Source: an uncultured Veillonella sp. (GTDB taxonomy: Bacteria > Bacillota > Negativicutes > Veillonellales > Veillonellaceae). Taken from it: 8,186 bases of DNA. This document shows positions 2,040 through 2,311 of the stretch, piece after piece. The notes beneath the pieces were generated by a model that ran no database searches, was not told the DNA's origin, and was given only the letters and a program-made list of their open reading frames with translations. Position 1 is the stretch's first letter. Every line of letters starts with the position of its first letter. The translations under genes were made by a program, and so were the position numbers. The stretch covers positions 1-8,186 of the forward strand of contig CABQQJ010000023.1 of NCBI GenBank assembly GCA_902466275.1, in the 5' to 3' direction.

Positions 2040-2048
2040 TGCTATACT
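2040..2048 (+). promoter_or_regulatory. Extended -10 promoter of the small peptide gene
   Basis: TGCTATACT is an extended -10 element (TG, one base, then TATACT at 2043-2048). No good -35 box is visible at 15-18 bases upstream. The predicted start near 2055 gives a leader of about 50 bases. Confidence 0.55.
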
Positions 2049-2082
2049 TATTACGAAGAGAGTCCGTTGACGTGAGTTAGGT

Positions 2083-2102
2083 TCATCTCCGCGAGGAGGT
2101 GA
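2083..2102 (+). promoter_or_regulatory. Leader hairpin sequestering a very strong Shine-Dalgarno
   Basis: The arms TCATCTCC (2083-2090) and GGAGGTGA (2095-2102) form an 8-bp stem with one G-U pair around GCGA, a GNRA-class tetraloop. The right arm is almost the whole ribosome binding site: GGAGGTGAT (2095-2103) matches nine bases of the 16S rRNA 3' end. The site would therefore be closed in the folded mRNA, as in many type I toxin mRNAs, where excess translation is harmful. Confidence 0.65.
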
Positions 2103-2106
2103 TACT

Positions 2107-2184
2107 ATGACAAATCATGAAGTTACCTATGTAATTATCATAGTTCTGTTATCAGTAGTCACTATCATTGCACTAGTTAAGTAG
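2107..2184 (+). CDS. Small hydrophobic membrane peptide, type I toxin-like (25 residues)
   Basis: This 25-codon gene begins at an ATG three bases after the very strong ribosome binding site GGAGGTGAT. The peptide starts MTNHEVTYV, runs through one continuous hydrophobic helix rich in Ile, Val and Leu (about residues 8-24, IIIVLLSVVTIIALV) and ends in a single Lys. This layout (short polar head with an acidic residue, one transmembrane segment, basic tail) matches holin-like and other single-span type I toxins of low-GC bacteria. Those depolarise or disturb the membrane when freed from an antisense RNA. I cannot assign a named family by eye. Its own extended -10 promoter, sequestered start, long 3' region and opposing TATAAT box support a toxin role. 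A harmless small membrane regulator is the main alternative. Confidence 0.6.
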   Translation: MTNHEVTYVIIIVLLSVVTIIALVK

Positions 2185-2195
2185 TACAACGATAA

Positions 2196-2240
2196 ACGCC
2201 TAACGTATAGAGGAGTGCAGTCCTCTAACACGTTAGGCGT
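2196..2240. terminator. Two-tier hairpin in the 3' region of the peptide gene
   Basis: Perfect 11-bp outer arms (ACGCCTAACGT at 2196-2206 with its complement at 2230-2240) enclose a small internal loop and a perfect 7-bp inner stem (2208-2214 with 2221-2227). T-tails are modest on both strands (ATTTTG after a gap on the plus, TTTATC at once on the minus). It may terminate the peptide mRNA, a minus-strand RNA, or both. Confidence 0.55.
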
Positions 2241-2266
2241 CATCATAATTTTGTTCAGTTTTAGAT

Positions 2267-2298
2267 GAGCCTAACGCCCTAATCACGTTAATGGGCTC
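2267..2298. terminator. Second hairpin sharing the CCTAACG core
   Basis: GAGCC-TAACG (2267-2276) pairs with CGTTA (2286-2290) and GGCTC (2294-2298), leaving a 3-base bulge and a 9-base loop. On the plus strand it is followed by TCTTTATAT. It repeats the CCTAACG/CGTTA core of the hairpin at 2196-2240 and is the more likely end of the plus-strand transcript. Confidence 0.4.
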
Positions 2299-2311
2299 TC
2301 TTTATATGTAT

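Follow-up and report, generated by a model that had tools for sequence, protein, structure and literature searches.

The stretch of DNA analyzed here, called the window, comprises 8,186 nucleotides and comes from Veillonella. The protein encoded next to the locus described below is 78-92% identical to its counterparts in 7 Veillonella genomes, and positions 2020-2340 are 99.7% identical to one of these, V. sp. T11011-6. A sequence-only reading of this DNA had picked out a compact set of features, and these were found where it had placed them. On the plus strand an extended -10 element, TGCTATACT, occupies 2040-2048 and is the putative promoter of a toxin mRNA with a predicted start near 2055. 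From this promoter and a 3' hairpin, the mRNA would extend over 2055-2305, or about 250 nt. A 7-bp hairpin at 2084-2101 (CATCTCC-GCGA-GGAGGTG), also present in relatives, closes the ribosome binding site, which forms its 3' arm (GGAGGTG, 2095-2101). The 25-codon open reading frame that follows (ATG to TAG, 2107-2184) encodes MTNHEVTYVIIIVLLSVVTIIALVK, a predicted single-span membrane peptide with a 17-residue hydropathy of 3.17. Facing the toxin promoter is a minus-strand -10 box, TATAAT at 2317-2312, from which an antisense RNA is predicted to start near 2305. This putative antitoxin would be about 117 nt long (2305-2189, minus strand) and is complementary to the 3' part of the mRNA. Folding and the repeats place a terminator-like hairpin on the minus strand at 2196-2240, with perfect 11-bp arms (2196-2206 and 2230-2240) and, in the window copy, no more than a short T-rich tail. 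At the other end, a hairpin at 2267-2298 with a T-rich tail reaching 2305, read by eye, is the predicted mRNA terminator and an alternative to the long-range pairing described below.

The antisense TATAAT box has neither a TG extension nor a good -35 element, and a strict sigma-70 scan of 1700-2800 called neither locus promoter. The strict scan of the same region called no terminator at either predicted RNA end. Its sole promoter-like site lies within the open reading frame on the minus strand (2162-2134), one site where 4.5 were expected by chance. A box of the TATAAT or TATACT type is found within 75 nt upstream of the ATG in 44 of 49 related copies that carry a toxin reading frame. Elsewhere in the window, an insertion element of the IS1249 family spans approximately 54-1405, with its ends placed by eye and its transposase on the minus strand at 87-1202 (NCBIfam NF033544, 492 bits); an end like that of this element interrupts a toxin copy in another genome (L145).

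Both strands of the locus fold very strongly. The plus-strand RNA 2051-2330 folds with -108.4 kcal/mol (z -9.5; none of 200 shuffled sequences did as well), and it surpasses the shuffles owing to pairing between its two ends, 2056-2087 (5') and 2264-2302 (3'). For the minus-strand RNA 2306-2189 the fold has -49.1 kcal/mol (z -7.1) and consists of a 5' hairpin and the long terminator-like hairpin. These z-scores, together with the recurrence of the same arrangement in many genomes in spite of sequence divergence, place the features of the locus beyond chance. The 5'-3' closure was absent from the sequence-only reading, as was the inverted repeat that covers part of its arms, 2056-2075 and 2283-2302 (20 nt, 85%). 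In the window the predicted closure helices are 2066-2074/2284-2292 and 2076-2087/2264-2275.

The closure is a property of the family. It was recovered by RNAalifold from an alignment that took in 34 of the 39 mRNAs listed, and in these the 21 pairs of the closure helix are formed in 99.2% of the cells of the alignment, compared with 28-40% in slid controls. The covariation score of 0.150, against 0.122, was reached by none of 500 shuffles, with the caveat that kinship among sequences can carry such a score above shuffles without any structure. Pairs changed on both sides numbered 2 against 1.1 in shuffles, and this was not above the shuffles (142 of 500 reached it). When mRNAs were folded whole, the probability of the closure exceeded 0.5 in 42 of 43. 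We conclude from these predicted folds that the mRNA structure is under selection.

A comparable analysis was made of the ribosome-site hairpin, for which 11 leaders with short loops were picked; L098 and L097, both with a mismatched stem, were left out, as were L095 and duplicates. The stem is fully paired in the 8 distinct short leaders, and one of its pairs varies as U-A, A-U and G-C, a compensatory change, although the count of pairs changed on both sides (1 versus 0.5) is not above that of shuffles, 272 of 500 of which reached it. The mismatch in L098 occurs in a relative, and that in L097 in a broken copy. More broadly, a hairpin is predicted at the ribosome site in all 32 distinct leaders, with a mean of -14.5 kcal/mol compared with -4.1 for shuffled sequences. 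Because CATC at 2084-2087 belongs both to this hairpin and to the 5'-3' closure, the two helices compete. The antisense-covered region was masked, in an uncontrolled comparison, in 43 mRNAs; 5 of 49 copies were skipped, having no nearby -10 box. Predicted opening of the ribosome site fell in 37, was unchanged in 1 and rose in 5, the median going from 0.063 to 0.004; in the window the effect was small (0.318 to 0.278). Under the same uncontrolled masking the start codon tended to open, with medians of 0.028 and 0.113.

The antisense RNA begins in a manner that resembles the mRNA. Over the first 32 nt of the mRNA the two agree at 28 positions, with a 7-nt gap in the alignment, so that the two predicted RNAs begin with approximately the same 32 nt. 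This shared start suggests that an inverted duplication of a toxin promoter and its leader could give rise to a facing antitoxin. A covariance model of the minus-strand RNA, R1, was built with the promoter excluded; it matches the window at 2304-2189 with 115 bits, the window copy being one of its training sequences. Upstream of the predicted antisense start, a -10 box lies within 24 nt in 69 of 70 distinct copies (12.9 in shuffles), and in 67 of these 69 it is situated 5-12 nt upstream. An extended -10 is present in 47 of the 70 distinct segments, compared with 0.7 in shuffles. The copies share ancestry, and their conserved features cannot be counted as independent events; near-duplicates were left out of the sets A2 and A4. 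The antisense promoter is conserved, even though R1 was built without one. Rfam yielded no family at the gathering threshold and, with 2000-2345 as query, none that is relevant at E≤10, whether RatA-like or another antitoxin.

Evidence that the peptide gene is real comes from its codons. In 88 antisense copies read for open reading frames, which are part of all the antisense copies, an ATG frame behind a ribosome site was present in 49, giving 39 distinct peptides of 22-33 amino acids; the ribosome-site pattern missed intact frames with unusual ribosome sites in at least 2 family copies (L093 and L098). Nonsynonymous change is depleted, with a pN/pS of 0.29 over 12 disjoint close pairs (P = 3e-5), and by this comparison the gene is under purifying selection. 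When frame conservation in relatives was checked, as the sequence-only reading had proposed, the peptide frame was found to be conserved and its loss was not observed. These data bear on the notion that the locus is a structured non-coding RNA or attenuator whose reading frame arose by chance. Very strong folding on both strands and the existence of solo RNA copies that carry no frame would be in keeping with such an RNA, but it offers no explanation for the 39 different peptides encoded in frame after a ribosome site, nor for a pN/pS of this magnitude, and we regard it as extremely improbable.

The peptides are of two kinds. Those like that of the window are strongly hydrophobic, whereas 17 of the 39 carry a net charge of +4 or +5, for example MKFFKKLSLLIKFLKLIIDLYHFFN. 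The latter look amphipathic rather than plainly hydrophobic, so that a single mode of action for all of them is uncertain. The window peptide is 25 amino acids long, hydrophobic and conserved, and thus answers to the description of type I toxins as small hydrophobic conserved peptides below 60 amino acids. It has no match at E≤1 in Pfam or NCBIfam. Among 9 family peptides sampled, 5 exceed the gathering score of 23.3 for Pfam PF16935, Hol_Tox, 2 others score under it, and the window peptide and a cationic one of the MKFFKK type have no match. In 3 further peptides, one passes Hol_Tox, one falls under that cut-off as well as under the TisB cut-off and one has no match. The window peptide is not filed as a member of Hol_Tox because it is its relatives, equipped with the same leader and antisense RNA, that pass. 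One of those that pass also matches the type I toxin PepG1 of NCBIfam, below threshold (21.2 bits, where the cut-off is 70).

Purifying selection and tight folding alone do not show toxicity, and the same observations could be made of a harmless small membrane peptide, either a signal or a regulator of some membrane enzyme, with a cis-antisense RNA to adjust its expression. Some relatives also match ComI of NCBIfam, a small inhibitor of competence, below threshold, the best scoring 32.8 bits against a cut-off of 55. Against this stand the relatives that pass Hol_Tox, the occurrence of the locus in tandem arrays with up to four copies in 2.9 kb (L083) and a decay that runs mostly one way, described below, in which the peptide is lost and the RNA kept; a useful peptide would be unlikely to go first. 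On balance we consider a non-toxic peptide unlikely.

Short and degenerate peptides make type I systems difficult to find, and in the present case the search could be made with the antitoxin RNA rather than with the peptide. With R1, one window led to a family that is matched in 25 of 28 Veillonellaceae genomes (at 1e-4). A DNA search had matches in all 7 Veillonella genomes, many covering the 3' part only, and R1 matched 13 of 14 genomes of the genus at E≤0.01. In the order, 26 of 61 genomes were matched at 1e-4, 25 of which are those of the family, and in the class, 16 of 150 at 1e-5, all of them family genomes already matched. The sole order genome outside the family with matches at 1e-4, G035, has six copies (best E 8.4e-12), and in the one that was read (L113) the toxin start is disturbed. 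All the modules found so far by these searches are in Veillonellaceae, apart from those in this one further genome of the order. Copy numbers can be high: among the matches listed, six family genomes (G016-G021) have 14 to 20 copies each, part of them arranged in tandem. Phage and plasmid DNA searches with the locus gave no match. A pattern scan of viral contigs for the antisense core returned two stretches that fit neither of the models and have the look of chance matches, and these were discarded.

The relation between toxin and antitoxin copies is asymmetric. The antisense set contains at least 156 copies, namely 150 listed R1 family matches and 6 weaker ones from the genus search; the leader set contains at least 114, listed down to 32 bits, with weaker matches unused. 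Among the antisense copies listed, a toxin leader accompanies 105 of 156 and is missing from 51. Among the leaders listed, in turn, 105 of 114 pair with a listed antisense copy, and 6 of the other 9 do have an antisense RNA (43-61 bits), so that 111 of the 114 are accompanied by one. The remaining 3 each head a disrupted gene: L146 has no start codon and no reading frame, L145 is cut by an IS1249-type end beside a contig end, and L147, near a contig end, has a nearly whole peptide fused to other sequence and may be an exception to the rule of decay. At L095, L097, L050 and L074 there are degraded toxin genes, in which the start codon is missing, the frame is broken or the N-terminal part is lost, and the antisense RNAs beside them retain their match to the model. 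The window's own locus in V. tobetsuensis retains the peptide and the antisense RNA, but its toxin promoter and leader are gone. Such one-sided decay is what one would expect of a harmful peptide that has the RNA as its antidote.

The same counts argue against a quite different reading, in which the locus is a MITE-like mobile element, the terminal inverted repeat (2056-2075/2283-2302) is a recognition end for a transposase and the reading frame is incidental. The inverted repeat itself, the many copies per genome, presence or absence at the same site between species and an IS1249-family element about 650 bp away would all suit such an element, as would close copies inside single genomes in G016-G021, which may instead reflect tandem duplication. 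However, the leader arm is missing from those 51 listed copies, and in 7 genomes the identity of copies to the window, leaving its orthologues aside, is only about 70-81%. Neither a clean empty site nor a target duplication was seen by eye at this one site. Further, purifying selection acts on the coding part, and the antisense promoter, which lies outside the repeat, is conserved. We therefore give a mobile element of this type very little credence, and both this reading and that of a chance reading frame were set aside on the strength of the decay pattern and the codon evidence.

Among the matches listed for the genus Veillonella, 26 of 42 antisense copies stand alone, with no leader. All 26 were read for a reading frame behind the ribosome-site pattern and none was found; the 25 leaderless copies outside the genus were read in part, and at least 2 of these lie at contig ends. 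No leader match above 32 bits is listed for 6 of the 13 Veillonella genomes that have antisense copies, V. parvula SKV38 (G006) among them. One solo copy occupies the same chromosomal place in ten genomes, behind a gene that resembles purD. Across these ten genomes, in 20-base averages, the RNA is 80-91% identical and its promoter stretch 77-79%; the neighbouring genes are mostly at 77-96%, and noncoding stretches further out at 51-69%. In 21 pairings of a solo RNA with a toxin mRNA of the same genome, the predicted duplexes have energies of -80 to -133 kcal/mol; shuffled RNAs average about -40 to -48, and the cognate antitoxin gives -204 to -222. These predicted energies are compatible with protection in trans, which they allow rather than show.

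As a whole, the comparative evidence supports the claim, made in the sequence-only reading, of a type I toxin-antitoxin-like locus with the 3'-overlapping layout known from Firmicutes. The support is drawn from the conserved antisense promoter, purifying selection on the peptide, sequestration of the ribosome site with a compensatory change, the relatives that pass Hol_Tox and the one-sided decay. We consider it quite probable that the locus is a type I module in which a hydrophobic, putatively membrane-impairing peptide is encoded by the predicted mRNA of about 250 nt, which the predicted antisense RNA of about 117 nt would silence by pairing with its 3' part. The finding is larger than had been stated, since it takes in a whole family with a shared-leader design, arrays and conserved solo antitoxin RNAs.

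From features read in the sequence and its relatives, namely the facing -10 boxes, the 3' overlap, the peptide frame, the end pairing, the ribosome-site hairpin and the one-sided decay, we infer how such a module might work. The ribosome site would be hidden by the CATCTCC/GGAGGTG hairpin once the leader is made. The finished mRNA would then close 5' to 3', and in doing so would withdraw CATC from the hairpin, leaving a shorter stem over the ribosome site. The antisense RNA, which starts with a near copy of the mRNA leader, would displace the leader from the 3' end of the mRNA; the freed CATC would lengthen the ribosome-site stem, which would grow from about 3 bp to 7 bp, and RNase III would cleave the long duplex. 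If the antisense RNA were scarce, or the 3' end of the mRNA trimmed, some peptide would be made, and this would insert into the membrane of its own cell and impair it.

The solo RNAs invite a further step, which we offer as a tentative possibility. Solo antitoxins, starting as they do like the toxin leader, might recognize many toxin mRNAs in trans and be kept, by cells that no longer have any toxin, as immunity to copies that arrive from outside or sit in arrays, while other genomes accumulate up to about 20 listed copies, some of them in tandem, with two chemically distinct peptide classes on one RNA chassis, in what would amount to an arms race between RNAs. One-sided toxin loss together with conserved solo RNAs provides a directly testable case of anti-addiction at the level of RNA.

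It is of interest to compare the module with known type I systems. In the parts of the source available to us, the ribosome binding sites of txpA, bsrE and bsrG are described as hidden in 4-5 GC pairs, RatA and SR4 as pairing with the 3' ends of their mRNAs, and SR4 binding as lengthening the SD stem of bsrG from 4 to 8 bp (PMC6562991). The Veillonella locus resembles txpA/RatA and bsrG/SR4 of Bacillus subtilis in having a short membrane-peptide gene, an RNA that faces it over the 3' part of the mRNA, a short ribosome-site stem and, as predicted here, a plausible extension of that stem on antisense binding. In some relatives the likeness extends to a peptide that starts with MxxYExL and passes Hol_Tox. 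Unlike these systems, the peptides here are only 22-33 amino acids long and both RNAs share a start of about 32 nt; there is 5'-3' closure throughout the family, conserved antisense RNAs occur alone, and up to about 20 copies per genome are listed. Relevant Rfam matches are absent, and the window peptide does not show, in Pfam or NCBIfam at E≤1, the toxin homology that would join it to TxpA and BsrG. The family also differs from Hol_Tox (PF16935, putative holin-like toxin) in having a defined antisense RNA and leader.

A second comparison is with aapA/IsoA of Helicobacter pylori, where, in the portion of the report available to us, the full-length mRNA is shut by a long-distance 5'-3' interaction and local hairpins form over the SD sequence (PMC6733600). 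The aapA interaction is described there as hiding the SD sequence directly (PMC6733600), whereas in the predicted fold here the closure and the SD hairpin compete for four bases. The likeness to aapA/IsoA thus concerns the fold of the mRNA, a 5'-3' closure that is both predicted and conserved in the present family. The mRNA of hok/Sok is likewise closed 5' to 3'. In par/Fst of Enterococcus plasmids the convergent RNAs share sequence elements, namely direct repeats; in 2040-2320 there are no direct repeats of 10 nt or more, and four inverted pairs are present instead.

A review of type I systems in Clostridia does not mention Veillonella or Negativicutes in the text covered by a term search (PMC6563280). 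For Veillonella, the part of a study of oral noncoding RNAs available to us gives cobalamin riboswitches, an L20 leader and an antisense RNA of S19, and nothing like the present locus (PMC7160235). In our searches of the open-access literature we found no paper that ties Veillonella or Negativicutes to a type I locus, an sRNA or a holin-like toxin of such a kind. Judged against that literature, the family is likely to be novel. Our best reading is that it constitutes a new type I family of Veillonellaceae, with a build like that of txpA/RatA and bsrG/SR4, an aapA-like closure and conserved solo RNAs.

Several other small-peptide loci were encountered. In other Veillonella (L003, L004 and L164) the same promoter stretch, TATATCGCTATTTGTGTAAA...TTTTGCTATACT, precedes a different small peptide gene; L003 and L004 are the same intergenic site, and the peptide in L004, which ends in ...YYICKWLDAFLALLFSN, has no Pfam match. 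From these sequences it seems that small peptide genes are swapped at this site behind one shared promoter. Some toxin promoters are preceded by a box, TATATCGCTATTT, which was considered as a regulator site and rejected, there being only 0-2 per genome in 11 genomes; its 10 places comprise 4 at family toxin promoters, 3 at the similar promoter of a different small gene and 3 within other genes. L054, L063, L075, L076, L077 and L027 carry a second peptide family, MNAYEVIMIVLGILTVVISFGALIVLICRNNDK with its close variants. It has a remote antisense match of 30-39 bits, adjoins an R1 copy in L054 and L027, and includes a variant that scores 17.3 on Hol_Tox, under the 23.3 cut-off.

In L087 (G020:C18:5000-24500), family copies surround an open reading frame of 1852 amino acids that looks like a repetitive surface protein, as well as frames that resemble Fic/Doc, RhuM and a protein of the ToxN/AbiQ type. 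Some antitoxin copies in G016-G021, at L154, L155, L159, L160 and L087, adjoin repeated structured segments of the type GGAACGCCACAAGGCTACTACACCTAACTGCGTTCC, and at one copy in L087 such segments take the place of the toxin promoter.
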